A stretch of 30,389 nt of DNA from a virus. The translations under genes were made by a program, and so were the position numbers. This document shows positions 4,764 through 30,389 of this stretch, in pieces (position 1 is the stretch's first letter; every line of letters begins with the position of its first letter). Location of the stretch: the IMG/VR virus record IMGVR_UViG_3300031825_000261, positions 1-30,389 of that record. One strand, given 5' to 3'. The notes under the pieces were generated by a model. It worked only from the letters and a program-made list of their open reading frames with translations. It ran no database searches and had not been told where the DNA came from.

Positions 4764-4821
4764 GGGTAGTCCTCCATAAGCTCATGGGTGATCGCCGCCG
4801 CGCGGCGGCAGTAGGGATGAA

Positions 4822-5699: not shown

Positions 5700-5701
5700 G
5701 G

Positions 5702-5929
5702 TCAGACCTTCCCTTCGATCCGAAGCAGGCAGCCATCGACCTGGAACGTTACGGTGACTTCCGGCAGCTTTCCCGGCTTCTGGACCAGCTTCACACGCGA
5801 CTGGCAACCCAGCGCCTGTCCGGATACAGCGTCATGCAGACAGACATGGCCGATGCCGCTGGGATCGGGGCGCAGGATCAGCGGCCGCTCGGATAACAGC
5901 CGCTGCAGTTCGGATTTCGTCGGGTTCAT
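5702..5929 (-). CDS. Small hypothetical protein in the neck gene cluster
   Basis: A 75-aa protein with a good start: ATG 5929 behind GAGG at 7 nt spacing. Its stop lies 2 nt from the next start, so it belongs to the late operon. It begins MNPTKSELQRLLSERPLIL and has a beta-rich C-terminal half with two Cys pairs (residues 30-45 and near 67). I do not recognise a family. Small proteins at this site in lambda-like phages are often of unknown function and nonessential. Confidence 0.65.
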   Translation of the reverse strand: MNPTKSELQRLLSERPLILRPDPSGIGHVCLHDAVSGQALGCQSRVKLVQKPGKLPEVTVTFQVDGCLLRIEGKV

Positions 5930-5938
5930 GTCATCACC

Positions 5939-6259: not shown

Positions 6260-6260
6260 G

Positions 6261-6812: not shown

Positions 6813-6814
6813 GC

Positions 6815-7057
6815 TCAGGGCTTCTCGTCTTCAGCAGCACTGTCGGCGGGCGCCTCGGCTGCCGTCGGCGCTACCGGAGCAGCGGCCTTGGTAGCCTGCG
6901 TCGGTTTCGCCTGGGTGGATTTCGCGTCGACCGTGACCAGCACCGCGGTTTCGGAGTCGATCAGCGCTTTGACCTGTTCGGCGCTGAAGCCGGCGGTCTC
7001 GCCGGCGCTGTAGCCGCGCCAGGATTTGAGGAATTTGATAGGGATCAGCTTGCTCAT
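6815..7057 (-). CDS. Small capsid-adjacent protein, unknown function
   Basis: An 80-aa protein with MSKLIPIKFLKSWRGYSAGETAGFSAEQVKALIDSE in the N-terminal half, a short domain often found just after the major capsid gene, and a low-complexity Ala/Pro/Thr/Lys tail ending in acidic residues (AAEDEKP). The function of the family is not known to me; a minor head or decoration role is possible. It has GAGG upstream and follows the capsid gene after a 7-bp stem hairpin (GCCCCGC/GCGGGGC at about 7085-7105) with no T-run. Confidence 0.7.
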   Translation of the reverse strand: MSKLIPIKFLKSWRGYSAGETAGFSAEQVKALIDSETAVLVTVDAKSTQAKPTQATKAAAPVAPTAAEAPADSAAEDEKP

Positions 7058-7112
7058 GGGGGAATCCTCGATTCAGGAAGGGAGAGCCCCGCACTCAGGC
7101 GGGGCGTGGGGA

Positions 7113-8426
7113 TCACATGCCAGCGCCCCAGGTGATGCCGGTACCGACGGCGACGGACTCGACATGGCGCGGGCCGAAGTCGTGCTTGGCGATCACGCGG
7201 ACCAGCGTCTGGTCACGCTGGAAGGCACTGACCCAGTTGCCCTCCCCGTCCTTGTAGGAGGCCTCCTGACTGAAGCTGATGACCAGTTGCTGCTCCTCAC
7301 CGATGTAGCAGTCGGCGAAGTTGACGAAGTAGATCTCCGACTCGTTGGCATTGGCGCCCAGGTTGGTCGGGATCTGGGTGGTAAGGGCGTAGGGGTAGCC
7401 CTTGAGCTTGCCCTGATCGATCTCCGGGTAGGCCTTGTTACCGTTGCCGTCGCGCAGCGACTGCAGCCAGCGGATGGTTCGTGGCGCCATGAGCCAGCCG
7501 CAGGCCGCCAGGTCGACGTTGGCCGTCTCGAGGCGCAGCATCAGCCCGCCGAGGAACAGGTCGAGGTCGGCCAGGGTAGTGCTGGCCGGCTGCGCCACGA
7601 CGTTGCTGGCCGGCGCCCAGTAGCGCAGGCCCTTGGGCAGGACACCAGAGCCGTCGGCCCGGATGAAGTGCAGGTCCTCGGAAAGCCCCATACTGACGGT
7701 CAGATCGTTAGCTACCTGCTGATCGATCAGCGGGTTGACGCCGGAGAACGCCAACAGATCGTTGGAGATCGGCACGATGGCAGATGCCTTCTTAGCCGAT
7801 AGCTTGAGGTCGTCGAAGGTCATTCCGGTCGTCGGGATATCGGTCTCGGTACCGATGTAGCCGACACTGGTATTTCCGGTGATACGCGATAGGGTCATAT
7901 TGCCGTTGTTCAGCGGCAGTCTAACGGCGCCCATGCGACGGATCACCGACTTCGGCCGCAGGGCCTCGATGACTTCGGTGGCGAAGTTTTCCGGGACTAG
8001 TACGCCGCCGGCGCCCGGGGTCACGGTGGAAAGGGCCATGGCGATATCGGTCGGGTACCCCCCTTGGGACGCCATTTGCGCGGCTTGCAACTGGTTGCCC
8101 TGAGCTGCGGCCAGCAGACGCACCATCTGGGCCATCGAGGCGCCGGCGATCGGCTTCGGCGCATAGGGGCCTTCGACACGGCCAGCTGGCGGGCCAGTGA
8201 TGCCCCGGGCGCTTTCGGCGACCGGTACGGCGGCGGCCGCCGCGGTGCGCTCGGCGATCTCGGCACGGCTGATCTTGTCGGTCAGGGCGTTGATCTGGGA
8301 TTCCAGCGCGGTGAACTGGGCGAGCTGCTCGGCCGACAGCGTCTCGCCGCCCGCCTCGAGCTTGGCCAGGGCCTGCAGCTCGTCGTTGAGCTTGGCGCGT
8401 TCGCTACGCAGTTGAAGTACAGACAT
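7113..8426 (-). CDS. Major capsid protein, HK97 fold
   Basis: A 437-aa protein from ATG 8426, which has AGGAGG 4 nt upstream; an upstream extension crosses a terminator and is rejected. The first ~100 residues are a coiled-coil delta domain (MSVLQLRSERAKLNDELQAL...), normally cut off during head maturation. From about residue 150 the HK97 capsid fold is clear: GGVLVPENFATEVIEALRPKSVIRRMGA, the E-loop region with YIGTETDIPTTGMTFDDLKLSAKKASAIVPISNDLL, and the C-terminal QTLVRVIAKHDFGPRHVESVAV. The S49 protease upstream would remove the delta domain. Confidence 0.95.
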   Translation of the reverse strand: MSVLQLRSERAKLNDELQALAKLEAGGETLSAEQLAQFTALESQINALTDKISRAEIAERTAAAAAVPVAESARGITGPPAGRVEGPYAPKPIAGASMAQMVRLLAAAQGNQLQAAQMASQGGYPTDIAMALSTVTPGAGGVLVPENFATEVIEALRPKSVIRRMGAVRLPLNNGNMTLSRITGNTSVGYIGTETDIPTTGMTFDDLKLSAKKASAIVPISNDLLAFSGVNPLIDQQVANDLTVSMGLSEDLHFIRADGSGVLPKGLRYWAPASNVVAQPASTTLADLDLFLGGLMLRLETANVDLAACGWLMAPRTIRWLQSLRDGNGNKAYPEIDQGKLKGYPYALTTQIPTNLGANANESEIYFVNFADCYIGEEQQLVISFSQEASYKDGEGNWVSAFQRDQTLVRVIAKHDFGPRHVESVAVGTGITWGAGM

Positions 8427-8442
8427 GGTGCCTCCTGGGCAT

Positions 8443-8464
8443 AAAAAAACCCGCACAGGGCGGG
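8443..8464 (-). terminator. Terminator-like hairpin upstream of the capsid gene
   Basis: On the minus strand CCCGC - CCTGT - GCGGG is a 5-bp stem followed by TTTTTTT. It lies in the 61-nt gap between protease and capsid genes. Placed inside the late operon it can only attenuate, or must be overridden by antitermination. The layout resembles the hairpins at 3101-3122 and 14134-14156. Confidence 0.6.
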
Positions 8465-8487
8465 CGGGTGAACTGCCGCGAACGCGG

Positions 8488-9432
8488 TCAGAGTCGGGAC
8501 TGGATGTTCATGGCCGCGGCGCGCACGCTGACGCGCCCGGATTGGCGGTTGGCGCGGCTCATGGAGACCGCACGGGAGAGGCTGTCCACCGCATCCTGCG
8601 GGCTCTGCAGGCGGTCGGCCAACCCCGCGGCGATGCCGGCCTGGCCTCGGTAGAGTGCGGCCTGGGTGGCGATCACCTGCTCGACCGACAGGCCGCGGTA
8701 GTCGGCCACGGCATTAACGAACAGCTGGTAGTTCTCCTGCACCAGGGCCTGCAGCACCTGCAGCGACTGGTCGCTGAGCGGCTCGTGCGGGTTGAGGTCG
8801 TTTTTGTGGTCGCCGGCGAACACGGTGGTGACCTTCACCCCCATGTTGGCTTCCATCTGGGAGCGGTCCATGTGGCTGGCGATGACGCCGATGGAGCCGA
8901 CGCCGCTGGTCTGGCTGACTACCAGTTCGCTGCAGGCGCTGCCGATCAGATAGCCGCCGCTGTAGGCCATGTAGTTGACGATGCCGGTGATCGGCTTCTG
9001 CTGGCTCATGGCGCGGATATCGGCGGCCAGCTCGAAGGCGCCGACGGCCGCGCCGCCGGGGCTGTCGATGTCCAGCACGATGTGCTCGACCAGCGGATCG
9101 GCGACGGCGGCCCGGAGCTGCTGCCGAAGGTCCTCGTAACTGGTCATGGTTTCGCAGGCGTTGATATGGCTGCCTCGGCTGACCAGCACACCATGCACGG
9201 GTACCACCTCGATCCCGGTCTGGGCGACGGCATTGCGCCGTTGGCTGTCAGCGACCGCCAGGCGCTCGGTATAGTCGTCGTCCTCCATTAGCCGGGCGGC
9301 GCCCGCCCCGATGTTGACGATATTCAGGTTCATCGCCCGGTTGGCCCAACGGACGCCCAGGTCGAGCATGTCGGGCGCGACCAGCAGCGGCTGGTTGAAC
9401 AGCAGGCTGGACGCTCGCAGGTATTGTCTCAT
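8488..9432 (-). CDS. S49 (SppA/ClpP-like) head maturation protease
   Basis: A 314-aa serine protease of peptidase family S49. The catalytic Ser is Ser158 in NYMAYSGGYLIGSACSE and the general base Lys is Lys210 in FAGDHKNDLNP, the Ser-Lys dyad of the family. IVLDIDSPGGAAVGAFELA (about residues 118-136) forms the oxyanion-hole region. The C-terminus ends in a region that may act as scaffold. In HK97-type phages this enzyme cuts the N-terminal delta domain of the capsid protein inside the prohead; its place between portal and capsid genes is normal. The ATG overlaps the portal stop by 4 nt. Confidence 0.92.
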   Translation of the reverse strand: MRQYLRASSLLFNQPLLVAPDMLDLGVRWANRAMNLNIVNIGAGAARLMEDDDYTERLAVADSQRRNAVAQTGIEVVPVHGVLVSRGSHINACETMTSYEDLRQQLRAAVADPLVEHIVLDIDSPGGAAVGAFELAADIRAMSQQKPITGIVNYMAYSGGYLIGSACSELVVSQTSGVGSIGVIASHMDRSQMEANMGVKVTTVFAGDHKNDLNPHEPLSDQSLQVLQALVQENYQLFVNAVADYRGLSVEQVIATQAALYRGQAGIAAGLADRLQSPQDAVDSLSRAVSMSRANRQSGRVSVRAAAMNIQSRL

Positions 9433-10700
9433 TGCGACAAGATCCTCTCGATTTCACGCTGCTGCAGCTCAAGCTGCGCCCGCGTATTGGGGTTGGTCAG
9501 ATCGGGGGCACCCTTGCCGGCATCGATCATGTTCAGCGGCTGCAGGTAGATGTCGCCGCCCGGTACCGGCGGCATGTTCTCCAGCCGGCGGATGTCGTTG
9601 ACGCTCAGCCAGCCCCACTGGCGGCCGATGGCGTAGGCCTCGTAGCGGCTCTTCTGGTCGCCGCGCAGCAGGCCGGACAGGTTGAACTCGATGAAGTAGT
9701 CGCGGCGGTCCTGCGGCAGCAGAAAATCGCGCATCATCGATTGCTCATGGCGCTTGAGCCAGGGCAGCAGGCCGAACACCACGAACTGGATCAGCAATTG
9801 CTCGGTGGTGTTGTAGTTGGCCTGGTCCAGGTCGTTGACCATAGGCAGCGGGATCTTGTAGATCCGCGCCACGTCGGCGCCGCTGAGCTTGAGGATGTTG
9901 ACGATGTCGGCATCCACGTTGCTCATGGAGATGGGCTTAAAGGTCATGCCCTCCTGCAGCATCGCCACCTTCTTGGCGTTGTCCATGCCGCTGTACTTGC
10001 TGCCCCACTGGTCGAGGATGCGGTCGATCGTGACCTGGTCCTTGATCGGCGCCGCCTCGCGCGGGCGCTCGATCACGCCGGAAACGGTCGCGCCGTTGGC
10101 GAACGACTTGCCGGTGTACTGCCGCACCGCCTGGGCCAGGCCGACCGCTTCGGCATGCAGCTCGATGGGAGACAGGCCGGCATAATGGTTGGCGGTATGC
10201 CAGCGGACGTGGTGCACCATGCGCATGGGCAGGCGCTCGGCAGCGCTGCTGACCTGGTAGTACGGCAGCAGGTCGGGCCCTTTGTAGACCTGCACCTTGT
10301 CGTTGAGCAGTGGCCAAAGGGCGATGACATTGCCGTCGGCACGCCGCTCGATGAGGCTGTAGGCGTTGCCGCGCAGCCCCAGCGCCATCTGACCACACTC
10401 GCGCAGCTCATAGGGCGTCTGGAAACCGTTGGGCTGGTAGCGCAGCACGTCGTACAGCGGATGGTTGATGGCCGCTTCGCGCTGGCCTTTGTCCTGGCGG
10501 CGGTAAAGCTCCAGCGGCAGCTGGGCGACACTCTCGGCCAGCAGGGTGACGCAGTTCTGCAGGATCGGCAGGCCCAGGGCGGTTTCCGGAGTGACCCGCA
10601 CGCCGGCGCTATTGCGGCCGCTGCCGATCAGGCCGCGCCAGAAGCCGGTGGTGCCGGCGCTCACGTTACCCTGCCCGCCGAGTAGGCTGGAGAAGAACAT
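9429..10700 (-). CDS. Portal protein, HK97 family
   Basis: About 423 aa from ATG 10700, chosen because AGGAGG lies 6 nt upstream (a TTG two codons earlier is less likely). It carries the HK97 portal pattern: a start of VTPETALGLPILQNCVTLLAESVAQLPLELYRR, HPLYDVLRYQPNGFQTPYELRE, GLRGNAYSLIERR, GLSPIELHAEAVGLA, IYKIPLPMVNDLDQANYNTTEQL, and RRLENMPPVPGGDIY near the C-terminus. Twelve copies form the DNA gate at one capsid vertex and dock the terminase. It lies after the large terminase and a small membrane protein gene. Confidence 0.95.
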   Translation of the reverse strand: MFFSSLLGGQGNVSAGTTGFWRGLIGSGRNSAGVRVTPETALGLPILQNCVTLLAESVAQLPLELYRRQDKGQREAAINHPLYDVLRYQPNGFQTPYELRECGQMALGLRGNAYSLIERRADGNVIALWPLLNDKVQVYKGPDLLPYYQVSSAAERLPMRMVHHVRWHTANHYAGLSPIELHAEAVGLAQAVRQYTGKSFANGATVSGVIERPREAAPIKDQVTIDRILDQWGSKYSGMDNAKKVAMLQEGMTFKPISMSNVDADIVNILKLSGADVARIYKIPLPMVNDLDQANYNTTEQLLIQFVVFGLLPWLKRHEQSMMRDFLLPQDRRDYFIEFNLSGLLRGDQKSRYEAYAIGRQWGWLSVNDIRRLENMPPVPGGDIYLQPLNMIDAGKGAPDLTNPNTRAQLELQQREIERILSQ

Positions 10701-10702
10701 GG

Positions 10703-10882
10703 TCAACCTCCTGCGCGCTGGGCGAGCTGGGAGGCCGCTTGGTCGGCCAGGCGCGCCCAGGCGAGCAGGCCGGCGCCGGCGACGATGTAGGCGGCCGGGA
10801 CGTTAAGCTGGGCCACACCGGCGACCAGCAGGCCGAAGCCGGCGAGGCCGGTCAGCCAGGACAGCAGTTGCAGGGTCTTCAT
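10703..10882 (-). CDS. 59-aa predicted membrane protein between terminase and portal
   Basis: This short gene fills the gap between terL and portal exactly. Its ATG overlaps the terL stop as ATGA and its stop precedes the portal ATG by 2 nt, with the portal ribosome site inside its last codons. The protein starts MKTLQLLSWLTGLAGFGLLV and has two hydrophobic stretches (about residues 5-27 and 30-43), so two membrane segments or a hairpin are likely, with a polar C-terminal helix. I do not recognise a family. Tight coupling on both sides argues that it is real. Confidence 0.7.
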   Translation of the reverse strand: MKTLQLLSWLTGLAGFGLLVAGVAQLNVPAAYIVAGAGLLAWARLADQAASQLAQRAGG

Positions 10883-12696
10883 ATGCCCACGCCTTCGTCG
10901 TAAATGGAGGTACCGCCGTCACCGAGCCCACCGACGCTGATGCCGGTGGCCATGATGGCGGCGACGATGCCGTCGATGCGGCCGATGGCCTTGGCCTTGT
11001 CGACCTTGCGGTTGCCCGCCGGGTCGGAAGCGGTGATCGCGTTGCCGGCGCACCAGGTGAGCACCGGGTTGCCGTCATGGCGCAGGGTTTCGATTTCCGG
11101 GGTCTCGCTGGCCACCAGTTGGTAGTCGTCCGGGCCAAGATCGAGGGTTTCGTGCTCCGCCGGCTGGCCCAGCAGGCGCCGCTCGAACTCGTCGACGGCC
11201 GGCCCCATGTCCTTGAAGCCCTGGCCGAAGCCGACCATCTCCGGCAGGGAGATGCCGTGCTCGCTCATTAGCTCGCGCAGGTCCTCGATCCGCCAGCGGT
11301 CGTAGGCGATCTGCCGCACGTCGAAGTGATCGCAGATGGTCTGCAGCCGGCGCAGGACATGCAGCTTGCTGATCGCCCGGCCCGGGGTGGTCTCCAGATG
11401 CCGCTCCTTGATCCAGACGGCATAAGGCACCTTGTCCCGGCGCTCGCGCTCCTCAAGCTGGTGATCGGGAATCCAGAAGTACGGCAGCAGTCGCCAGTAC
11501 GGGTCGGCGGCCGTCGGGTAGAACAGCAGCACGAAGGCCGTCAGGTCGGTGGTACTGGAGAGGTCGAGCCCGGCCACCGCCGGGCGGTTGCGCAGTACCC
11601 GCATGGGTACGCGCTCGTCGGCGGCGCTCCAGATGTCCCAACTGATCCAGGGGTTGTCCGCCTGGGTCCACTGGCAGAAGTTGAGGCGGCGAATCACCGC
11701 CTCTTTCGCCGGCAGGCCGCGGGCCTCCGCCACCTGTTCGCGCAGGTACTTGCGGCCGGGGATGCCGTCGCTCTTGCCTTCGGGAATCCAGTCCAGCGAG
11801 GGGTTGGCCTTCGCCCAGCACGCCTCGTCGGTGAACGGGTCGTCGCCTTCGTCCAGGGAGCAGATGAAGGCGAACAGGGTGTCGTTGTCCTCAAGGCCTG
11901 CGCACACGCGCTTGCCGAGGTCGTGGTACTGGCCGGCGACGCTGTTCTTGTCGGAGCCGCTGTTGGTGATCATCACGATCAGCGCACGCCGGCGGTTCTT
12001 GGTGCCGGCGCGCATCATGTTCACCACGGTGGCGGTCTTGTGCTCGTGCACCTCGTCGAGCAGGCCGATGTGCGGGCGCGGGCCGGACTGGCCTTCGTCC
12101 GAGCTGATCGGCCGGAAGAAGCTGTTGGTGTTCGGGTAGAATAGGTTCCAGACTTTATCGTCTCGTCCCGACTGCAACAGCCGGGTACTCAGCGCCGGGG
12201 ACATGTCGACCATCGACACCGCATCGCGGAACAGGATCATGGCCTGGTCTTTTTTGGTCGCCGCGGCGTACACCTCGGCACGCTGTTCGCCATCGGCGAC
12301 CAGTCCGTACAGGCCGATGCCGGCGACCAGCGGCGACTTGCCGGAGCCCTTGCCGGTTTCGATGTAGGCGGTGCGGAAGCGCCGGTAGCCGTCGTCGGTG
12401 TACCAGCCAAACAGGCTGCCGACGACGAAGGCCTGCCAGGGCGCGAGGAGAAACGGCTCGCCCTCGTAGTCGCCGCCGTTGAGGCAGAGCACGTCCTCGA
12501 AGAAGCCGATGGCGCGGTCGGCGGCGGCCTGATCCCAGACCAGACCGCGCAGGGCGCCGGTCTCCCGGTCGCGTAGGTGGCGGCGGCAGGCGTTGCGCAC
12601 ATCGGGCCCGGCGACGAGCTCGCCGGCCAGTGCGGCCTGGGCGAAGGCGGTGACGCGGTCAGGAGAAGTATCGATCTGCGGCGTCTCTTGGGACAT
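10879..12696 (-). CDS. terL: Terminase large subunit
   Basis: A 605-aa packaging motor of the Terminase_1 (HK97/P27-associated) class. The N-terminal ATPase has the Walker A variant ETGKGSGKS (residues 113-121) and Walker B HIGLLDEVHEH (Asp214-Glu215), followed by the coupling motif IVMITNSGS. The C-terminal RNase H-like nuclease starts at AGLDLSSTTDLTAFVLL, where the Asp residues bind metal, with a further candidate at AYDRWRIEDL. It cuts concatemeric DNA and pumps it through the portal. It overlaps the small terminase gene by 38 nt. Length is normal. Confidence 0.95.
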   Translation of the reverse strand: MSQETPQIDTSPDRVTAFAQAALAGELVAGPDVRNACRRHLRDRETGALRGLVWDQAAADRAIGFFEDVLCLNGGDYEGEPFLLAPWQAFVVGSLFGWYTDDGYRRFRTAYIETGKGSGKSPLVAGIGLYGLVADGEQRAEVYAAATKKDQAMILFRDAVSMVDMSPALSTRLLQSGRDDKVWNLFYPNTNSFFRPISSDEGQSGPRPHIGLLDEVHEHKTATVVNMMRAGTKNRRRALIVMITNSGSDKNSVAGQYHDLGKRVCAGLEDNDTLFAFICSLDEGDDPFTDEACWAKANPSLDWIPEGKSDGIPGRKYLREQVAEARGLPAKEAVIRRLNFCQWTQADNPWISWDIWSAADERVPMRVLRNRPAVAGLDLSSTTDLTAFVLLFYPTAADPYWRLLPYFWIPDHQLEERERRDKVPYAVWIKERHLETTPGRAISKLHVLRRLQTICDHFDVRQIAYDRWRIEDLRELMSEHGISLPEMVGFGQGFKDMGPAVDEFERRLLGQPAEHETLDLGPDDYQLVASETPEIETLRHDGNPVLTWCAGNAITASDPAGNRKVDKAKAIGRIDGIVAAIMATGISVGGLGDGGTSIYDEGVGI

Positions 12697-15238: not shown

Positions 15239-16948
15239 TCATGCTGCACGCACCTTAACGTGGTCCCAATCGTCCACGTTCCAGCCCGCCAACCGAGCCT
15301 TGGCACGCCACTCTCCCACCATCTGGCCGAGCTTCGCCGCCTGCAGTGATGGGGGCCGGGAAGCCGCAGGATCGCTCGGGAAGAAGAACGCACCGAAGCG
15401 CCGACAGTTGCCATCGGTCCAGGGAATCGCGCGGGTCTTCTCCACCTCGGCGGACAGGAACAGCGAGAACTTCGTATGGCTCAGGCTGTGCTCTTTGTTG
15501 TGATGGCACCACTCCAGGAACAGCGCATACAGATCGCTCGACAGGCAGGCCCCCCACATATCGGAACCAAGCTCACCGATACGCCATAGGGTCAGGAAGG
15601 TCTGCCAACTGGCCCGGCTCAGCGCCACCAACCGCTCCCGCGCCTCCGTCTTCGGCGGCCGCGTTCGCTGATTGAAGTCTCCCAGGTCGACGGACAGCAG
15701 CCAGGCGTAGAACGCCTCCAGCCCGCCGTTATTGAGCTCCGCCTCGATAGCCTTCTGCCGTGCCTCGGGCAGTGTCTCCAGCGGCCACACCACCAGCAGG
15801 CGCCGGTCGTTCTCGCTGATCGGCCACGGCAGAATCTCGTTGGAGAGGAATACCGCATTCATGTGGTTGGCCTCTTCCCAACCATTGATGAACTTCGACT
15901 CCATGCGCACCGTCTTCCCGGTGATCAGATGCTTGATCTTGCCCACCTGGTTGTACCGCTGGTCGCGGCTGACCACCTCCTCGAACACCGCCCACAGCTT
16001 GCGGCTCTGCCAGGCATTGAAGTTGCTCTCCAGCTGCGTCTGGCCGACGGTCGCCGCGTACTGCCCGTAAATCCCGCCCATCACATCCGAGAACAGCCAG
16101 CTCTTGCCCGATCCCTCCATGATCGAGTGCATCAGCACCGCGGTATCCATTTTGGCGCCCAGGTGCTGCAGCGGGTACGCCAGCCAGCGCGTCAGCCACA
16201 GCGTGGCCTCGGGGTCCTCGTTGCACAGGAACGGCAGTAGCCAGCGCAGGTTCGCGCACTTCCCATCGTCCCGCTTCGGCTCCAGAGGCAATCCCTCGAA
16301 CGTGTTGATGTACAGGCTCGGGTCCTTGGTCTGGGTCGGATCGAACACGATGTGATCCACGTCGACCACCTTGCGTTCCGGACTGTTCAGCCACAGCGAA
16401 TAGGCATCCCCCAGGGCCATCTTCACTGCGCCCTCGGCGATCCGCCGCTTCTTTTGCATGTCCCAGACATCCTTGGTGCCATCGATATACACATACCGCT
16501 CGAGCGGCTGCATCGACAGCGCCCCACCCTTCTTCGCTGCCATGCGCCGGGCCTGCTCCACCCCGCGCACCCAATCCGAGGAAACGGTCCGCTTGCCGGT
16601 GTTGTCATACCAGCCCTTCGCCAGCGCCTTGCCCACCAGCAACTCGAACGCCGACTTCTTCATCACCGCATTGCGGTCGTTATCCCAGACATGGGTAGTC
16701 CCCTCGACCAGCGCAAAGCGCCGCTGTACTTCCGTACTGGTCATTCCCTCCCCCTGCCCCCCGGTATCGGAGGAGCTGACAGCCGCGGCGGGCTCAGCCT
16801 CAGATGGGGCATGGGGAAGATCAGCCTCGGCCCACTCCTGCAAGTCATCCAGCGCACACTCGGCCGGCGCCTGCTGCTGAGCAGCCGTCAGCTGCTCCCT
16901 GACGGCCTCGATGCCCCAAGCCGTATGCAGATCATTCCAGTCAGCCAT
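15239..16948 (-). CDS. SF3-type replicative helicase (DUF5906/P4-primase C-terminal family)
   Basis: A 569-aa protein. Residues 1-70 are a variable acidic linker. From about 245 a superfamily 3 helicase is visible: Walker A SIMEGSGKSWLF (Gly-Lys282-Ser), Walker B LWAVFEEVVS, and the C motif NAVFLSNEILPWPISENDRRLLVVWP, where the Asn and Arg finger lie. This matches the helicase half of phage/plasmid primases of P4 alpha type. It unwinds DNA at the origin. The primase half is encoded by the gene upstream, whose stop overlaps this start as TAATG, so the two form a split P4-like primase-helicase. Confidence 0.88.
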   Translation of the reverse strand: MADWNDLHTAWGIEAVREQLTAAQQQAPAECALDDLQEWAEADLPHAPSEAEPAAAVSSSDTGGQGEGMTSTEVQRRFALVEGTTHVWDNDRNAVMKKSAFELLVGKALAKGWYDNTGKRTVSSDWVRGVEQARRMAAKKGGALSMQPLERYVYIDGTKDVWDMQKKRRIAEGAVKMALGDAYSLWLNSPERKVVDVDHIVFDPTQTKDPSLYINTFEGLPLEPKRDDGKCANLRWLLPFLCNEDPEATLWLTRWLAYPLQHLGAKMDTAVLMHSIMEGSGKSWLFSDVMGGIYGQYAATVGQTQLESNFNAWQSRKLWAVFEEVVSRDQRYNQVGKIKHLITGKTVRMESKFINGWEEANHMNAVFLSNEILPWPISENDRRLLVVWPLETLPEARQKAIEAELNNGGLEAFYAWLLSVDLGDFNQRTRPPKTEARERLVALSRASWQTFLTLWRIGELGSDMWGACLSSDLYALFLEWCHHNKEHSLSHTKFSLFLSAEVEKTRAIPWTDGNCRRFGAFFFPSDPAASRPPSLQAAKLGQMVGEWRAKARLAGWNVDDWDHVKVRAA

Positions 16949-17988
16949 TACGCTGCCTCCCCTGGCATCACCGGGAAGGCCACCACGGCACCCACCTCGC
17001 GGGCGGCCGCCTCGGCCTTCGTCCGGCCCGGGTTCTCCGTCACGGTCGGGTCATCATCGCCGCAGATGAGCAACCGGCGCTCCGGATACCAGCCCCGCAA
17101 CGCCCTGGCCACCGCCAGCAGATTGCCCGCATCGATCGCCACCGCTACCGGGCAGCCCAACGCCATGTGCACGCTGGCCGCCGTGGCATACCCCTCAGCA
17201 ATCGCCAACACCCGGTCGGGGGCGGCCATGTCGCCGAGAAGATGGAAACAGCCCGACTTGCGGCCGTACTTGGGAAACAGCTTGGTGCCCTGCTCGTTGA
17301 TCGCCTGCAGGCTCCACAGCCGGCCCTCGCTGTCGCACAGCGGCACCGCGATGCTGCCGCGCTTGAACATCAGGAAGGAGATCGAATCCGGTCGCGGCTT
17401 GGGTAGGCTGTTGAAGAAGCTACGCGTCTCGCTACCCACCCACACATCGCAGCGCTGCCGTGCATCATCGATGCTCAGCAGCACGGTGTAATGGAAGAAC
17501 CCGATGCCGAACGCCCCGACCTGCTTGCGCTCCAGATACGGGCTCTCGCCAGTCGGCTTGCAATGCTTGTCCCAGATCATCTGGCAGGCGCCGGATACGG
17601 CCTCGCGCATCACCGCCAAGCGAGCCTCGTCCGCCTCGATCTCGGCCTGCCGCGCCTTACGTCGGGCCTCCTGCTCGGCAGCGAAGCGACGCTTGTCCTC
17701 GGCGCTCATCTCGGTCCGTTCCGGCTTCCAGCCGTTATCCAGGGCCATCTTGATCACGGTCCCCATCCCGGTACCGGTCTTGCGGAACGAGCGCCACACG
17801 GTCCTGGCATCATCCGGGTTATAACCAGCACCCGACTGGCTCCAGGTATCCCAGACATCGAAGCCGTCTGCGCCGAATTCGGCCTTGATCCCCATGCCGA
17901 CCTGCAGCCAGATCTCACGGCTGTCAGCAGGAATGTAGGCCAGCAGGCCCGGTAGATCGTGCACAGCGAGAGGAAGATGATCAGCCAC
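16948..17988 (-). CDS. Phage primase, PriCT-2 and Toprim domains
   Basis: A 346-aa protein starting at GTG 17988 behind GGGAG. Residues about 10-80 match a PriCT-2 type helical domain (REIWLQVGMGIKAEFGADGFDVWDTWSQSG). A Lys/Arg/Glu-rich helix follows at 95-125. From about 170 to 340 lies a Toprim catalytic region: VLAIAEGYATAASVHMALG holds the conserved Glu, and LLICGDDDPTVTENPGRTKAEAAA holds the metal-binding DxD. It makes RNA primers for phage replication and works with the helicase encoded next. Confidence 0.88.
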   Translation of the reverse strand: MADHLPLAVHDLPGLLAYIPADSREIWLQVGMGIKAEFGADGFDVWDTWSQSGAGYNPDDARTVWRSFRKTGTGMGTVIKMALDNGWKPERTEMSAEDKRRFAAEQEARRKARQAEIEADEARLAVMREAVSGACQMIWDKHCKPTGESPYLERKQVGAFGIGFFHYTVLLSIDDARQRCDVWVGSETRSFFNSLPKPRPDSISFLMFKRGSIAVPLCDSEGRLWSLQAINEQGTKLFPKYGRKSGCFHLLGDMAAPDRVLAIAEGYATAASVHMALGCPVAVAIDAGNLLAVARALRGWYPERRLLICGDDDPTVTENPGRTKAEAAAREVGAVVAFPVMPGEAA

Positions 17989-22832: not shown

Positions 22833-23315
22833 ATGAACACCTACATCATCGTCGGGGCCATGGTCCTGATCGGAAGCCTTGCATACGCGGTTCTGTTGCA
22901 GAAACTCTCCAGCGCCAAGGATCGCTCCTACGCCATCGGCTACTCGGCCGGCGCCGAGAGCCAGCAGGGCACGATCACCGCCCTGCAACGCCAGATCGAC
23001 AACCAGACCGTCGACCTCCTCAAGCTGCGAGCCGCCCGTGAGCGCGAACGTAACGAAGCCCGCCAGGCACTGGAACAGGCCGTCCACGACGCCGACCAGC
23101 GCCTCGCCGACGCCGAACGCCGCGCTCTGAGCGCCGAGGACGCCACCACCCTGCGCGCCTTCGCCGCTCAGTTGGAGGTGGCTGCCACCACCTGCAATAA
23201 CGTCGGCGCCACGGTTGCCGCCGACAACATGAAGCGCGGCGCCGCCATCGCTCGCGACCTGGCAGACCGAATCATCCCCACCACCGAATCCGTACAGCTG
23301 GAGGCTGCAGCATGA
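22833..23315 (+). CDS. Membrane-anchored coiled-coil protein of unknown function
   Basis: A 160-aa protein with one N-terminal membrane segment (residues 3-22, TYIIVGAMVLIGSLAYAVLL) and no clear cleavage site, then a long Arg/Glu/Ala-rich coiled coil (about 45-105, including LRAARERERNEARQALEQAV). This shape recalls an inner membrane spanin, but it is far from the holin and on the opposite strand, so I do not call it one. The end overlaps the first DGR target gene as ATGA, so both are translated together. The start is behind GGGAG. Confidence 0.7.
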   Translation: MNTYIIVGAMVLIGSLAYAVLLQKLSSAKDRSYAIGYSAGAESQQGTITALQRQIDNQTVDLLKLRAARERERNEARQALEQAVHDADQRLADAERRALSAEDATTLRAFAAQLEVAATTCNNVGATVAADNMKRGAAIARDLADRIIPTTESVQLEAAA

Positions 23316-23920
23316 ACAACGCCACTATCACCGCATCGCTTCCCGCCATCGGCACCCCGTTTGAGGGCGGCTTCTTCGCCGGCCTGTTTTACCTGAACGG
23401 CGATACCTACGCCCTGATCGTCTCCCCACGCGCCCAAGGCGAACTCGAGGAGGCCGCGTGGGGCCCGCGTGGGTTGGATATCTCTGCACGCAGCTATAAC
23501 GACGGGATGGCCAATACCCAGGCCATGGCCGATGCCGGAAGCGATCTGGCTCGCTGGATGCTCGCTCTGGAGATCAGCGGATTCACCGACTGGTACCTGC
23601 CCAGCCGAGACGAGCTGGAGATCCTCTACCGCAACCTCAAGCCCACCACAGCCAGCAATTACACCTGGCGCGCCGGCGATAACCCCAGCAGCGTGCCGCC
23701 CGGCTATCCGTATACCGAGGAAGTGCCTGCACAGACTGCAGCCGCTGCATTCCAAGACGGCGCCGGCGAGGCCCTCTCGCCCGAGTGGTACTGGAGCAGC
23801 ACGCAGTACAGCCCGACCAACGCGTGGATTCAGGACTTCGCCGATGGCGACCAGCACGACGTCCACAAGGGCGGCGAGTACCGCGCGCGGGCCGTCCGCA
23901 GATTCAAGGTTACCCCTTAA
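23312..23920 (+). CDS. DGR target protein 1 (C-type-lectin-like, DUF1566)
   Basis: A 202-aa variable protein without signal peptide. It has the DUF1566/Lcl C-terminal layout: an N-terminal strand pair FEGGFFAGLFYLNGDTYALIV, GMANTQAMAD, the hallmark GFTDWYLPSRDELEIL, and the final WYWSSTQYS.TNAWIQ...RARAVRRFKV which is the C-type lectin fold exposing the variable face. Residues about 164-196 are encoded by VR1. Compared with the template, Asn/Asp codons read Thr, Asp, Ala, His, Asp, Val, Gly, Gly, Tyr. DGR-diversified lectins bind ligands; which particle or surface carries this one is unknown. It is coupled by ATGA to the gene before it and followed by a GCA-loop hairpin. Confidence 0.92.
   Translation: MNNATITASLPAIGTPFEGGFFAGLFYLNGDTYALIVSPRAQGELEEAAWGPRGLDISARSYNDGMANTQAMADAGSDLARWMLALEISGFTDWYLPSRDELEILYRNLKPTTASNYTWRAGDNPSSVPPGYPYTEEVPAQTAAAAFQDGAGEALSPEWYWSSTQYSPTNAWIQDFADGDQHDVHKGGEYRARAVRRFKVTP
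23802..23901 (+). repeat. Variable repeat VR1 of the DGR
   Basis: 100 bp aligned without gaps to the template repeat at 25195-25294. There are 10 differences, at 23817, 23834, 23841, 23855, 23858, 23862, 23871, 23873, 23874 and 23879; each corresponds to an A in the template. All C, G and T positions are identical. The last 21 bp, GC-rich, are unchanged and would be the site where homing starts. Confidence 0.96.
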
Positions 23921-23939
23921 TCCTTTCACCTATTTCATG

Positions 23940-23958
23940 CCCCGCGCGCAGCGCGGGG
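23940..23958 (+). other. DNA/RNA hairpin after VR1 (homing hairpin candidate)
   Basis: CCCCGCGC - GCA - GCGCGGGG, an 8-bp perfect stem, 38 nt after VR1. No T-run follows, so it is not a normal terminator. A similar hairpin follows VR2 at nearly the same distance and none follows the template. Target-site hairpins of 7-10 bp are needed for efficient homing in the Bordetella phage DGR. Confidence 0.72.
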
Positions 23959-23984
23959 ACGCTCCAAATTTTGAGGGCTTGAAC

Positions 23985-24614
23985 ATGCAACACATCACCT
24001 TGGATATCGGCAGCACCTCGCTAAAAACCACCAATGCGGCCTTGGCCCGTCAGGTACTGGAGCAGGAAGCCGGTCTGGCCTGCACGGTAGAGCTGACCTC
24101 CGGCGAGCTGGTCGCCCGAAACTCGATTTGTCCGCCGGCGATTGGCCAGTTCTGGCCGGAGCAAGGCGGCATCTATGCCGGCCTGATGCGCGGCGAGAAC
24201 GGCGGCCCGGATTACCACCTGATCGTCGCAGCAGACCTGGCCGGCAGCATCGAGGACATCGTCTGGGGCTCGGCCAGTCAGGAAGAGTCCGGCGCCACCA
24301 GTTCACTCGATGGCCTGGCCAATACCCGGGCCCTGCTCGACTCCCCCCATGACCATCCCGCGGCGCAGTGGGCAGCCGGGCTGCAGATCGACGGCTATCA
24401 CGACTTCTATCTGCCGGCCCGCCGGGAGCTACGGCTGTGCTGGATCAATGTGCCCGAGCTGTTCGAGGACGCCTGGTACTGGAGCAGTACGCAGTACAGC
24501 CCGAGCAGCGCGTGGATTCAGGGCTTCGACGATGGCGACCAGTACTACGGCCACAAGGGCATCGAGTACCGCGCGCGGGCCGTCCGCAGAGTGCTCACCA
24601 CTTCAGCCCTTTAA
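23985..24614 (+). CDS. DGR target protein 2 (C-type-lectin-like, DUF1566)
   Basis: A 209-aa paralogue of target 1; ATG 23985 has GAGGG 7 nt upstream. The N-terminal 45 residues (MQHITLDIGSTSLKTTNAALARQVLEQEAGLACTVEL) are not in target 1. Then GQFWPEQGGIYAGLMRGENGGPDYHLIVAADLAG, GLANTRALL, the DUF1566 hallmark GYHDFYLPARRELRL, and the final AWYWSSTQYSPSSAWIQ. Residues about 169-202 come from VR2; template Asn/Asp codons read Ser, Ser, Gly, Tyr, Tyr, Gly, Gly, Ile, Tyr. No export signal is visible. Having two targets served by one template doubles the number of variants that can be displayed. Confidence 0.92.
   Translation: MQHITLDIGSTSLKTTNAALARQVLEQEAGLACTVELTSGELVARNSICPPAIGQFWPEQGGIYAGLMRGENGGPDYHLIVAADLAGSIEDIVWGSASQEESGATSSLDGLANTRALLDSPHDHPAAQWAAGLQIDGYHDFYLPARRELRLCWINVPELFEDAWYWSSTQYSPSSAWIQGFDDGDQYYGHKGIEYRARAVRRVLTTSAL
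24490..24589 (+). repeat. Variable repeat VR2 of the DGR
   Basis: 100 bp, gap-free against the template. There are 10 differences at 24505, 24508, 24522, 24523, 24543, 24546, 24550, 24559, 24562 and 24567, again all at template adenines. Eight of the ten template sites are shared with VR1, with different bases at several. Confidence 0.96.
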
Positions 24615-24624
24615 CCCTTTGGGG

Positions 24625-24643
24625 GCGCGGGCGCAGCCCGCGC
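24625..24643 (+). other. DNA/RNA hairpin after VR2 (homing hairpin candidate)
   Basis: GCGCGGGC - GCA - GCCCGCGC, an 8-bp perfect stem 35 nt after VR2. It has the same loop and length as the hairpin after VR1, with a different stem. There is no T-run. Confidence 0.72.
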
Positions 24644-24659
24644 TTCGCGAGTTTCCAGC

Positions 24660-25022
24660 ATGGCCATAGCCCAACACCTGCCGATCTACAAGCTGGCCAG
24701 CGATCTCGCCAGCCTGGCGGCCGATCTCACAAAGAACATGCCGCGGGACTTCAAGCGGACGCTCGGTGAGAAGGTGCTGGTGGAGTGCATCGATGTCTGC
24801 GTCCTGATCTTCCGCGCTAACGTCGCGACGGGAAACGACCGGGTACCGCACATCCAGCAGATCCTGGAGCGCATCCAGATCATCGAGCTGATGCTGCGGC
24901 TTTGCGTAGACAAGCGCCTCATCAGCACCAGCCAGTTCGCCAGATCAATCGAGATCACCGACTCGATAGGCAAGCAGGCCACTGGGTGGAAAAAGTATGC
25001 AGCCGCAACGCCTGCTGCCTGA
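24660..25022 (+). CDS. avd: Accessory variability determinant, Avd family
   Basis: A 120-aa predicted four-helix-bundle protein. MAIAQHLPIYKLASDLASLAADLTKNMPRDFKRTLGEKVLVECIDVCVLIFRAN and later IQIIELMLRLCVDKRLISTSQFARSIEITDSIGKQATGWKK match the Avd/four helix bundle family ('LPKDFR.TLGE', a central basic face, and a last helix ending 'GW.K'). In the Bordetella DGR Avd forms a pentameric barrel that binds the reverse transcriptase and the template RNA. It lies between target 2 and the template repeat, the usual DGR order. The ribosome site is weak. Confidence 0.88.
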   Translation: MAIAQHLPIYKLASDLASLAADLTKNMPRDFKRTLGEKVLVECIDVCVLIFRANVATGNDRVPHIQQILERIQIIELMLRLCVDKRLISTSQFARSIEITDSIGKQATGWKKYAAATPAA

Positions 25023-25194
25023 GCGTCACGGCGCCCAGGCCAGTGCGACTTTGAATCTGGTCGTGCCGCTGGCCTACCCGGCCACCGCCATGCGAACCAG
25101 GGGAACCATCCGGCGTCGGCCGGACAGGCCCCGCGCAATTTCACCACTGATCGGCCCAGGCCTTCGGTGGTGCGATGTGAATAGCACGACTTAG

Positions 25195-25294
25195 CGCAGT
25201 ACAGCCCGAACAACGCGTGGATTCAGAACTTCGACGATGGCGACCAGAACAACGACCACAAGGACAACGAGAACCGCGCGCGGGCCGTCCGCAG
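25195..25294 (+). repeat. Template repeat TR of the DGR
   Basis: 100 bp, in the frame of the targets it would code Asn at AAC codons (template positions 15-17, 18-20, 33-35, 54-56, 57-59, 72-74, 78-80) and Asp at GAC codons; 30 of its bases are A. Twelve template positions are seen changed in one or both variable repeats: 16, 19, 33, 34, 40, 54, 57, 61, 70, 72, 73 and 78. The unchanged GC-rich end (positions 80-100) contains a single A. It lies in a 172-nt gap after avd and overlaps the first codons of the longest RT frame. Confidence 0.96.
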
Positions 25295-26412
25295 CTTCAA
25301 CCGGCTCTTCCCATGCTGGACTTTCTTTCGAGGCTCTCGTGCAGGCGTACCTGGACTGCCGGCGCAACAAGCGCAGCAGCACCTCCGCCTTGGCATTCGA
25401 GCTGAACCTGGAGCAAAACCTCATGCAACTGCATACCGAGCTGAACAGCGGAACCTACCAGCCCGGCACCTCCATCTGTTTCGTGGTGACCCACCCGAAA
25501 CCCCGCGAGGTATGGGCCGCAGAATTCCGCGACCGCATCGTTCACCACATGCTCTATAACCACGTCGGCGCCCGCATCGAGCGTACCTTCATCGCCGACA
25601 GCTGTGCTTGCATCCCGGGCCGCGGCACGCTCTACGCCGCACAGCGCCTGGATGGCAAGATCCGCAGCATCACGCAGAACTGGAGCCAGCCTGCGCATTA
25701 TCTCAAGTGCGACTTGGCCAACTTCTTCGTCAGCATCGACAAGCGCGTGCTGGCCGAACAGCTCAAGGTCCGTATCCCAGAGCCGAACTGGCAGCAACTG
25801 GCCCGGCAGATCCTGCTGCACGATCCGCGCGAGAACTACCAGCTTCGCAGCGCACAGCGGCTGTTCAATCGGGTTCCGCAGCACAAGCGCCTGGCCAGTC
25901 AGCCGGCCCACCTCGGCCTTCCGATCGGCAACCTATCGTCGCAGTTCTTCGCCAACGTCTACCTCGATGCCCTCGACCAGTTCGTGAAACACCAGCTGCG
26001 CGTCCGGCATTACATCCGCTACGTGGACGACTTCATCCTGCTGCACGAGTCACCCCAGCAGCTCAACGCCTGGCGCGAACAGATCGAGTCCTTTCTGGCC
26101 GAGCGCTTGCACGTGCGCCTCAATCCCAGCAAGACCATCCTGCAGCCGGTCAGTCGCGGCGTCGACTTCGTCGGCCAGGTCATCAAGCCCTGGCGCCGCA
26201 TCACCCGTCGCCGCACCGTCGACAACGCCCTGCGCCGGGTTGCCACCGCGCCTGCAGACCAGCTGCGGGAAACCGCCAACAGCTACTTCGGCCAGCTTCG
26301 CCAGGCCACCCACAGCCAGAACGACCGCCGGAAACTCGCGAAAGCCCTGCTGCTACGCGGCAAGGCCGTCAATGCCGAGCTGAGCAAGACCTATAAAGGA
26401 GTGCGGGTATGA
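25237..26412 (+). CDS. DGR reverse transcriptase
   Basis: Up to 391 aa; the RT catalytic Asps are Asp159 (HYLKCDLANFFVSID) and the YVDD box (residues 262-265, RYVDDFILLH). The motif IGNLSSQFFANVYLD (230-244) has the [IVL]GxxxSQ form that marks DGR RTs, where most RTs have QGxxxSP. There is no maturase or RNase H domain. It copies the template RNA and misincorporates at A. Start choice is open: ATG 25237 lies in TR and lacks a good ribosome site; GTG 25339 has GAGG 5 nt upstream but cuts the conserved LSFEALVQAY helix. The stop overlaps the next gene as ATGA. Confidence 0.96.
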   Translation: MATRTTTTRTTRTARGPSAASTGSSHAGLSFEALVQAYLDCRRNKRSSTSALAFELNLEQNLMQLHTELNSGTYQPGTSICFVVTHPKPREVWAAEFRDRIVHHMLYNHVGARIERTFIADSCACIPGRGTLYAAQRLDGKIRSITQNWSQPAHYLKCDLANFFVSIDKRVLAEQLKVRIPEPNWQQLARQILLHDPRENYQLRSAQRLFNRVPQHKRLASQPAHLGLPIGNLSSQFFANVYLDALDQFVKHQLRVRHYIRYVDDFILLHESPQQLNAWREQIESFLAERLHVRLNPSKTILQPVSRGVDFVGQVIKPWRRITRRRTVDNALRRVATAPADQLRETANSYFGQLRQATHSQNDRRKLAKALLLRGKAVNAELSKTYKGVRV

Positions 26413-27163: not shown

Positions 27164-27188
27164 AAGGGGCCATCAGGCCCCTTCACTT
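27164..27188 (+). terminator. Shared terminator between PrtN operon and integrase
   Basis: AAGGGGCC - ATCA - GGCCCCTT is an 8-bp stem with a 4-nt loop, followed by CACTTTTT on the plus strand; on the minus strand it is followed by TCTG. It ends the rightward operon; the integrase stop codon overlaps it. Confidence 0.8.
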
Positions 27189-28310
27189 TTTCCGGGCGCC
27201 CAAATCAACCGGCGCAGCGATAATCTTCTCTAGCCACTCCCAGTCTCGATACTGATCTCCCCGCCCATGCAGGTGCGTATAGCGGCGCAGCGAGTTCCAG
27301 TTGCGGTGACCAGACACACTGGACACCCGCGGGATATCCCAATCCATCTCGAACAGTCGGCTTACACCCTCATGGCGCAGGTCGTGGAAATGCAGATCCT
27401 CGATCCCCAGGAACTGACAGGCTCTGGTCCACGAGGCAGAAATGGATTCGCCATTGTAGGGAAATATCACCGGGAAGCTCCGCGGCATACTTTTCAGGAT
27501 GGCCCAGGCCTCATCTGGTAGGTGACACCAGACATTGTTCCCGAGCTTCTGCCCGGGATTCTTCATATCGCGTACCAGCACCGCCTGCCGGCGTTCGTCC
27601 AGGTCATCCCAGCGAATACGCGTAATCTCTTCCTGCCGCCTGGTAGAGAACAGGGCGAAGCCGATGACCTTCGGCATGTTGATCGAACTCGGCCGACGCT
27701 GCTGCATCTCAAAGAAGTGCTCGAGCAGACGGTCCAGCTCCTCCTTGGTTGGGCGCCGGTCGCGCTCGTTGCTACGAGAAACCATGCCCATCCGGCGCAG
27801 AACCTTGCGCGCGTCCCCTATAGCATGCGGGTCGACCTCGTATCCCCAAGCCGGCTTTGCTACGGCGAGCACAGCACCGAGGTGAGCCAGGTCGTTACCG
27901 ATTGTCTGAGGCTTAACGCCGCCGCCGACTGGCTCCAGCCGCCAACGCGCGTAGTCGGAGAGTATCTGGCTGGTGATGTCCTGGTCTACGACTTCGCCCA
28001 GCCACGTCTCACCGATAGCCTTAAGGGTAGCGCGCTTGGTCTTCCCGAGCGGCTTCATCCTTTCGTACTCGTCGAGATAGCGCTCGATCATCTGCTTGAC
28101 CGTCACGCCTTTACGATTGGCTCGATCGAGAGCACCTGGCTCGGCCAGTTCGGTTTCCCGTCGCTTGATCCAGGCCTGGGCAGCCTGCTTGCGGTCGAAA
28201 GTCTGGCTTTCTTGATAGACTCGCACACCATCGCGCATGACCCTGATCTGCGCCGTATAACCGGTGGTGCCGTCCTTGCGGCGCCGCGATGTGATCGTGC
28301 CCATTTCCAT
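27183..28310 (-). CDS. int: Tyrosine integrase, dusA-type
   Basis: A 375-aa tyrosine recombinase. The N-terminus (about 1-55) is an arm-binding part GTITSRRRKDGTTGYTAQIRVMRDG with strand-rich folding, then a SAM-like core-binding domain (about 65-165), then the catalytic domain with Arg225 (FSTRRQEEI), His309-x-x-Arg312 (HFHDLRHEG), His335 (SGHRNWNSL) and the nucleophile Tyr344 (RRYTHL). All are present, so it is probably active. It lies beside dusA and points to the phage interior, as expected of dusA-associated integrases. Two start codons, ATG 28310 and ATG 28304, lack a good ribosome site. Confidence 0.95.
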   Translation of the reverse strand: MEMGTITSRRRKDGTTGYTAQIRVMRDGVRVYQESQTFDRKQAAQAWIKRRETELAEPGALDRANRKGVTVKQMIERYLDEYERMKPLGKTKRATLKAIGETWLGEVVDQDITSQILSDYARWRLEPVGGGVKPQTIGNDLAHLGAVLAVAKPAWGYEVDPHAIGDARKVLRRMGMVSRSNERDRRPTKEELDRLLEHFFEMQQRRPSSINMPKVIGFALFSTRRQEEITRIRWDDLDERRQAVLVRDMKNPGQKLGNNVWCHLPDEAWAILKSMPRSFPVIFPYNGESISASWTRACQFLGIEDLHFHDLRHEGVSRLFEMDWDIPRVSSVSGHRNWNSLRRYTHLHGRGDQYRDWEWLEKIIAAPVDLGARKK

Positions 28311-28406: not shown

Positions 28407-29417
28407 ATGCCACAGAATCAAGCCTCAACCCCAGTAACCACGCGGCCTGAGCCGTCCCGCCGCTTCTGCGTTGCGCCGATGATGGATTGGACCGACCGAC
28501 ACTGCCGATTCTTCTTGCGCCAGCTATCGAAGCACACCCTGCTCTATACGGAGATGATCACCACTGGCGCCTTGCTTCATGGCGATGCCCAGCGCTTCCT
28601 TCGTCACGACGAGACCGAGCATCCGCTGGCCCTGCAGCTGGGCGGCAGCAACCCGGGTGAACTGGCGGCCTGCGCACGACTGGTCGAGAGTGCGGGTTAC
28701 GACGAGATCAACCTGAACGTGGGCTGCCCCAGCGACCGGGTACAGAACAACATGATAGGCGCCTGTCTGATGGGCCATCCGACCCTGGTGGCCGATTGCG
28801 TGAAAGCCATGCGAGATGCGGTGTCCATTCCGGTGACCGTCAAACACCGTATCGGCATCGATGGGCGCGACTCCTATGCCGAGCTCTGTGATTTCGTCGG
28901 ACAGGTCAGCGAAGCCGGCTGCCGGAGCCTTATCGTGCATGCACGCATCGCCATTCTGACGGGGCTCTCTCCGAAGGCGAACCGCGAGATCCCGCCCCTG
29001 CGCTACGACATCGCACAACAGCTGAAGCGCGACTTTCCCGATCTGGAAATCATACTCAACGGCGGAATCAAGACTCTCGAGGAATGCCGCGAGCACCTGT
29101 TGACCTTCAACGGCGTGATGCTCGGGCGCGAGGCCTATCACAACCCCTACCTGCTTGCCCGAGTCGATCAGGAGCTGTTCGGCAGCCCAACCCCGGTGGC
29201 CAGCCGACACGACGCATTGGAGCCGCTGCGCCCCTACATCGAGCACCATCTGGCCGAAGGCGGCGCCCTGCACCATATCACCCGCCATGTACTGGGCTTG
29301 AGCCAAGGCTTTCCGGGGGCCAGGCGCTTCCGTCAGCTGTTGTCGGTGGACATACATAAGGCCGCGAACCCGCTAGCGCTGTTTGATCAAGCGCTGGATC
29401 TACTCGAAGGACGCTGA
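28407..29417 (+). CDS. dusA: tRNA-dihydrouridine(20/20a) synthase DusA
   Basis: A 336-aa TIM-barrel FMN enzyme that reduces U20/U20a in the tRNA D loop. [21 protein letters not shown] is the N-terminal FMN-binding strand. The catalytic Cys is Cys107 in [30 protein letters not shown] and [15 protein letters not shown] complete the barrel, and the helical tRNA-binding domain follows. The first residues ([16 protein letters not shown]) and the upstream region probably come from the prophage end, so the phage may supply a new start and promoter. The gene remains intact. It is followed by tal, as in Pseudomonas. Confidence 0.95.
28455..28505. other. Probable attachment site in the 5' end of dusA
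   Basis: Phages with this integrase type recombine at the start of dusA around the codons for [12 protein letters not shown] (28470-28505). The second copy, expected at the far prophage end, is outside the window, so the core cannot be defined here. Confidence 0.4.
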
Positions 29418-29563
29418 TCGCTGCCGACAGAGGATGGAACCACTTCTGGGCATCGGACATCAAAGTCTCGCTTTGCCTGCCAATGCAGATACCTGCCATA
29501 CCCCCGTTGAGCGCTACCCTTCCCTCAGGTAAGGTCAGGAAATCGCAAAAAGGACACCGCCCC

Positions 29564-30389
29564 ATGACATCCAAGCTGGAGCAACTCAAGCAATTCACCA
29601 CCGTGGTCGCCGACACTGGCGACCTGGATGCCATCGCCCGCCTCAAACCAGTCGACGCCACCACCAATCCGTCGCTACTGCTCAAGGCAGCCGCTCTCCC
29701 CCGCTATGCTGGACTGCTGGATCGAGCCGTCACGGGCTGCGCGAGCGACCTGGGATTGGCCTGCGATCGCTTCGCCGTCGCGGTCGGCCAGGAGATTCTC
29801 CAGGTGATTCCCGGGCGAATCTCGACAGAGGTGGATGCACGCCTGTCGTTCGATACCCAGGCAACCATTCAGCGCGCCGAACGCCTGATCGATCTCTACG
29901 CCAAGGCAGGCATCGGTCCGGAACGCGTACTGATCAAGATAGCCGCCACCTGGGAAGGCATTCGAGCTGCCGAACAGCTGGAGAAAAGCGGAGTCCGCAC
30001 CAACCTAACCCTGCTGTTCTCCTTCGCACAGGCTGCTGCCTGCGCCGATGCCGGAGCCTTCCTGATCTCCCCCTTCGTCGGGCGTATCTACGACTGGCAC
30101 AAGAAGGCGGAGGGTCGAGACTTCAACGGAGCCGAAGATCCCGGTGTGCAGTCGGTGACACGGATATACAACTACTACAAAGCCAACGGCTACGATACGG
30201 TAGTGATGGGTGCGAGCTTCCGCAACATAGGCCAGATCGAGCAATTGGCCGGCTGTGACCGCCTGACCATCAGCCCCGAGCTGTTGCAACAACTCTCTGA
30301 AGACCAGGGCTCCCTAGAGCGAAAACTGGCACCAGGCGGAGCCGGAGAAGCATGTCAGCAACTGGACGAGAAAGCGTTCCGCTGGTCGC
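29564..30389 (+). CDS. tal: Transaldolase (C-terminus beyond the right edge)
   Basis: The first 275 codons of transaldolase, [20 protein letters not shown]. The pattern [13 protein letters not shown] binds substrate, and the Schiff-base lysine is Lys125 in [50 protein letters not shown] follows. It moves a C3 unit between sugar phosphates in the pentose phosphate pathway, in the cytoplasm. AGGA lies 9 nt before the ATG. This is a host gene and marks the chromosomal side; the pair dusA-tal is also found together in P. aeruginosa. The gap 29418-29563 shows no gene. Confidence 0.95.

Follow-up and report, generated by a model that had tools for sequence, protein, structure and literature searches.

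The virus record IMGVR_UViG_3300031825_000261 of IMG/VR, whose entire length of 30,389 bp is called the window here, very probably carries a complete avd-type diversity-generating retroelement (DGR) of a Pseudomonadaceae prophage in which, judging from the sequence, a single template repeat (TR) diversifies two paralogous C-type-lectin-like proteins. A preliminary description of this DNA had listed target 1 with its variable repeat VR1, target 2 with VR2, avd, the TR and a reverse transcriptase (RT) gene in that order on one strand, and all of them were recovered as described, on the + strand (Table 1). It had also spoken of a complete prophage DGR. The DGR is indeed complete, of the avd type and located in a prophage, but the record holds a partial prophage, cut at its left end within the tape-measure gene.

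The TR, VR1 and VR2 were compared base by base. The three repeats are 100 bp long and align without gaps, 30 of the 100 TR positions are A and each VR differs from the TR at 10 positions, all of them template A, just as had been proposed. Taken together, all 20 differences fall at template A, and the 70 non-A positions are unchanged (hypergeometric P = 1.7e-6 for each VR). The changes hit AAC and GAC codons and change the residue. At the 3' end, where the initiation-of-mutagenic-homing (IMH) sequence of a VR would differ from that of its TR, the last 20 bp of the repeat are common to both VRs and the TR, and just beyond the repeat VR1 has one C-to-A difference from the TR. Neither strand of the record contains a further TR or VR copy, as the next best match has 30 non-A mismatches, and no third VR was found within the window.

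Activity in the lineage was judged from the alignment of near-identical cassettes, in groups of relatives that are 96-99% identical over the cassette. In these groups 47-84% of the A sites vary in each VR, whereas variation affects 0-4% of the non-A VR sites and, in the TR, 0-1 of about 100 sites. In the group of LPPA56 (seven cassettes), variation was seen at 23 of 29 A sites of VR1 and at 21 of 29 of VR2, compared with 3 of 142 non-A VR sites, none of the 100 TR sites and 1-12% of sites in the rest of the cassette; each of the seven has a distinct VR1 and a distinct VR2. The same pattern was observed in two more near-identical groups. VR variation confined to A sites in such close relatives indicates that both targets have been rewritten repeatedly and recently in the lineage. 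The preliminary description had suggested a comparison of strains, and had counted non-A substitutions as common as A substitutions, or VRs identical in all isolates, as evidence against a DGR. Neither was seen, and no two of the prophages compared have a VR1 or a VR2 in common.

Comparisons between genomes bear on the sharing of the template. The TR differs at 14.7% of its non-A sites between genomes, with VR1 and VR2 each changing in step with the TR of the same genome (correlations >0.99); across 119 pooled TR/VR pairs, 1531 differences are at A and 34 at non-A positions, figures that favour A partly by construction because the search for VRs penalised non-A mismatches. Since the TR has diverged at non-A sites and the two VRs have changed along with it, both targets draw on a single template (concerted evolution), and the earlier suggestion that a single source diversifies two proteins is upheld.

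Several points weigh against this interpretation. One is the lean towards A just mentioned in the pooled counts and the TR tracking, from which the alignment of near-identical cassettes is free within the groups compared. Another is that the exact A-masked TR pattern had no match in IMG/VR, so that no near-identical copy of the prophage was found and we infer its own activity from that of its lineage. The start codon of the RT is also uncertain, the candidates before residue 27 (in-frame ATG, GTG or TTG near the N-terminus) being ATG 25237, which lies inside the TR, and GTG 25339. Finally, the loops of the hairpins that follow the VRs have 3 nucleotides (GCA), whereas the published consensus for phage DGRs is a 4-nucleotide GRNA loop (PMC3240598).

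The remaining parts of the DGR are present. The RT has the YVDD and IGNLSSQ motifs noted before, and its active site is intact in sequence. Among solved structures it is closest to chain 8ub7 (E 1.2e-41), which we take to be the BPP-1 DGR RT. Matches to NCBIfam models of retron, defence-associated (DRT) and group II RTs were all far under cut-off, and those identities were rejected, as was that of a defence gene, since the PADLOC matches reflected general RT similarity, with a generic RT model as the best. The RT frame is open through the TR, and the in-frame ATG within the TR is seen in many relatives as well. The RT N-terminus may thus be encoded by the template repeat itself, a layout corresponding to group 3 of the DiGReF survey, in which the TR overlaps the RT frame (PMC3521204). 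The Avd protein scored 40.2 bits with Pfam bAvd (cut-off 40.0) and 41 bits with the NCBIfam Avd model, under its cut-off of 80. A full-length RT-15 structured RNA (174.8 bits against a gathering threshold of 82) extends from the 3' end of avd up to the TR, whose start it abuts.

GC hairpins with 8-bp stems lie about 32-40 nucleotides past both VRs and are absent 3' of the TR. In the close clade, a hairpin of at least 7 bp was present within 60 nucleotides of 27 of 30 VRs and of 1 of 14 TRs. The loops after the VRs of the clade are mostly 3-nucleotide GCA or GTA, closed by C-G; C-GNA-G triloops form unusually stable DNA hairpins. In BPP-1, homing requires a GC hairpin 3' of the VR (PMC3240598), and the hairpins of the window are probable homing elements. 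By analogy with BPP-1, from which the cDNA step, the homing step and the role of the hairpins are borrowed, RT and Avd would reverse transcribe RNA of the RT-15/TR region with random bases opposite template A, and the complementary DNA (cDNA) would replace VR1 or VR2 beside their 3' hairpins. The ligand-binding faces of two paralogous lectin-like proteins would in this way be diversified from a single template.

Both targets had been described as C-type-lectin-like DUF1566 proteins with the VR at the C-terminus, and the Lcl_C and PHROG matches together with the structural models agree with this, although the Lcl_C score of target 2 (33.0 bits) is slightly under the cut-off of 34.9 that target 1 (45.6 bits) exceeds. 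Each VR occupies the 3' end of its target gene. Target 1 was modelled (predicted local distance difference test, pLDDT, 95) as roughly one lectin-like domain without a separate attachment domain. The model of target 2 (pLDDT 90) has the C-terminal domain of Legionella Lcl as its best PDB fold. The two paralogues had been thought to have different N-terminal parts. Target 2 is indeed longer at its N-terminus, by about 50 residues, and target 1 contains an internal insertion, but the proteins are homologous over about 198 residues (39% identity). The start of target 1 overlaps the stop of the upstream gene (ATGA).

Table 1. Position of the DGR and of other features in the window.
Feature	Position	Strand	Remarks
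Target 1	23312-23920	+	202 residues, C-type-lectin-like (DUF1566/Lcl_C); phrog_4245 E 4e-35
VR1	23802-23901	+	
Hairpin 3' of VR1	23940-23958	+	CCCCGCGC-GCA-GCGCGGGG
Target 2	23985-24614	+	209 residues, start ATG, paralogue of target 1; phrog_4245 E 2.9e-34
VR2	24490-24589	+	
Hairpin 3' of VR2	24625-24643	+	GCGCGGGC-GCA-GCCCGCGC
avd (accessory variability determinant)	24660-25022	+	PHROG "Avd protein of DGR" E 1.1e-29
RT-15 structured RNA	25006-25196	+	Rfam RF03018, E = 1.4e-43
TR	25195-25294	+	
DGR RT, conserved core	25312-26412	+	phrog_1423 E 7e-120
Tape measure (cut), major tail protein, capsid, protease, portal, terminase	3-12696	-	
Primase genes	15239-17988	-	
CI-like repressor	from 19188	+	opens the + strand run
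PrtN/excisionase-like gene	26873-27157		matches Pfam PyocinActivator (PrtN) and PHROG excisionase family; adjoins integrase
Integrase	27183-28310	-	
Host dusA, then transaldolase (tal)	within 28407-30389		beyond integrase

Downstream of the CI-like repressor, the + strand carries genes for a deoxynucleoside monophosphate (dNMP) kinase and a DUF2303 protein, the DGR, a phrog_5434 gene and the PrtN/excisionase-like gene. The prophage is inserted at dusA, a known prophage integration site (PMC4482086). The host bacterium, judged from its genes, is a member of the Pseudomonadaceae (Pseudomonas-type); its dusA-tal stretch has 71-81% DNA identity to the Pseudomonadaceae genomes sampled, and with a maximum of about 81% the host species lies outside those sampled. 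The gene at 22833-23315, upstream of target 1, looks as if it encodes an N-terminal membrane segment and a coiled coil. It was rejected as a fixed partner of the targets, being without match in phage records and present in some relatives only.

The same cassette layout was found in dozens of prophages. At least two VRs are present at 61 of 73 related loci, which are partly redundant, and the pair of targets (assigned in relatives by homology of their frames) and its spacing are conserved, with the order of the two target types swapped in some relatives. Third targets also occur, some of them several kb away; distant second or third targets were seen at loci L074, L011, L006, L107, L013, L028, L020 and L105, and at L074 the second target (about 5700-6220) lies 3.9 kb upstream of the RT and not beside avd. 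A related RT (E <= 1e-60) was present in 27 of 399 sampled Pseudomonadaceae genomes, with 69-81% identity in 26 of the 27, and one of these RTs carries a stop.

Among the closest known systems are Pseudomonas phage LPPA56 (OR188718) and near-identical P. aeruginosa-type prophages (L081-L085, L109, L116), which have the same cassette with an RT 73-75% identical and VRs at about -1516 and -830 from it. The complete genome of LPPA56 contains the TR and two VRs only. These prophages differ in their flanking genes, and the LPPA56 RT is annotated as a hypothetical protein only. Burkholderia phage Magia (NC_070954) likewise has Avd, TR, RT (64%) and multiple lectin-fold targets in its early region, but its VRs number three, one of them about 7 kb off near the repressor, and its targets are shorter with other N-termini; the publication on it describes a potential DGR with two candidate targets (PMC7883833). 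The DGR of Bordetella phage BPP-1 (mtd-avd-TR-brt) shares the order target-avd-TR-RT, the A-specific TR/VR differences, a homologous RT and the GC hairpin 3' of the VR, and differs by its one tail-fibre target, where the window has two small DUF1566-type targets in the early region, and by its 4-nucleotide GRNA loop. A Pseudomonas fluorescens DGR with two VRs, that of strain WH6, was listed in the DiGReF survey of 2012; by its description it has one template for both VRs and belongs to the same host genus (PMC3521204). Several VRs were reported in 28.6% of a set of 948 DGRs, with a two-VR element with two DUF1566 targets among those shown (PMC6642488), and phages with two DGR targets have been discussed (PMC10743442, PMC11792537). 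There is thus published precedent for DGRs with several targets, for DUF1566 targets and for a Pseudomonas DGR with two VRs, and the two-target arrangement is a known one that related phages commonly have.

The early region of the window, between the repressor and integrase genes, contains both targets, far from the tail genes. Targets and TR matches were also located between the repressor, recombination genes and integrase in LPPA56, Magia, vB_Sb_QDWS, Cruim01, Aurca01 and Haboob, and neither the window nor these six complete genomes has a target in the tail module, as a BPP-1-type element would. LPPA56 is almost wholly annotated as hypothetical, and its tail module was deduced from gene sizes and strand; for vB_Sb_QDWS about 10 kb of annotation was read, and the place of its third VR (44985) was deduced. 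Homologues of target 1 occur in phages without a match to the DGR RT. The orf68 of Pseudomonas phage D3 (33.5% identity over 79% of target 1) adjoins cI, and since the D3 genome has no match to the RT of the window, orf68 is not diversified by such a DGR. In U7 the homologue is near the repressor, in the jumbo phage Ettore (L132) in a cluster of small unknown genes, and in PMBT3 (L130) near lysis genes. Pseudomonas phage Aurca01 (L135), a close relative of Cruim01 (L134), has lost avd, TR and RT, of which a short RT relic remains, and retains three target genes (VRs 3229-3334, 11766-11869 and 12454-12551). All 44 differences between these VRs and the Cruim01 TR (near 9471-9600) are at A. The explanation is either a very recent loss or a co-resident DGR that acts on the VRs in trans. 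CC1557 is given as the host of both phages. That Aurca01 keeps its targets without the mutator indicates that the target proteins are of use even in its absence.

The TR and VRs could in principle be products of plain duplication followed by divergence through point mutation or recombination, without retrohoming, as the two targets are paralogues. The confinement of all changes to A at the P value given above, the adjacent DGR-type RT, Avd and RNA, and above all the relatives, in which variable sites are confined to A and the TR is fixed, refute this, and we give it almost no credence. An element intact in sequence yet inactive in this prophage, its VRs being fossils of past homing, is unlikely rather than negligible. 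Relic states exist in the family, as in Aurca01, and a stop was found in the RT from one sampled genome, but the window has an intact RT, Avd, TR, RNA and pair of hairpins, and the 140 non-A positions of the two VRs show no change. A working DGR with one template and two targets is therefore preferred.

For the role of the targets there are two readings of similar weight. It is quite possible that they are tail receptor-binding proteins of the virion, that the DGR alters host range in the manner of BPP-1 and that the early location is incidental. Tail-fibre or receptor-binding function is the standard role of phage DGR targets (PMC8144416). Some viral structural neighbours of target 1 are tail-fibre or virion proteins of the same fold, and no signal peptide or membrane segment is apparent by eye, as expected of a virion part. 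Against this stand the tail and head genes of the window on the other strand, the targets in the early or integrase region of six complete genomes, the homologues next to cI in phages without a match to this RT, and the modelled target 1 without an attachment domain of its own. Early-region targets and RT-less homologues near the repressor mean that a tail role is not established for this clade. The targets could equally belong to proteins made early or in the lysogen and absent from the virion, for example in counter-defence, exclusion or host-factor binding, and an intracellular or lysogen function would then be diversified. We consider this possible as well. The location of the targets, which every complete genome examined has between repressor and integrase, the RT-less homologues in D3, U7 and the jumbo-phage cluster, and the targets kept by Aurca01 after mutator loss are in its favour; against it, PADLOC found no match to any known defence model for the targets and neighbours, and the PMBT3 homologue lies near lysis genes. 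No paper on the function of early-region DGR targets was found in the literature searched, the coverage of which was incomplete. A non-virion role is about as likely as a tail role.

The element itself is one more multi-target DGR, and the question it raises is the role of early-region targets. Its lineage is useful in that many near-identical prophages show, from sequence alone, two paralogues rewritten side by side from one unchanging template, and relatives are carried by the isolated phages LPPA56, Cruim01, Haboob and Magia, which makes activity and target function testable. We suggest tentatively that, in temperate phages of gamma- and betaproteobacteria, a widespread DGR clade may diversify at least two small, non-virion, lectin-like proteins of the early or immunity region, for an intracellular or lysogen function such as counter-defence or exclusion and not for receptor tropism. 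If the targets prove to be non-virion proteins, the common assumption that phage DGRs serve to change host range would have to be revised for a large clade.

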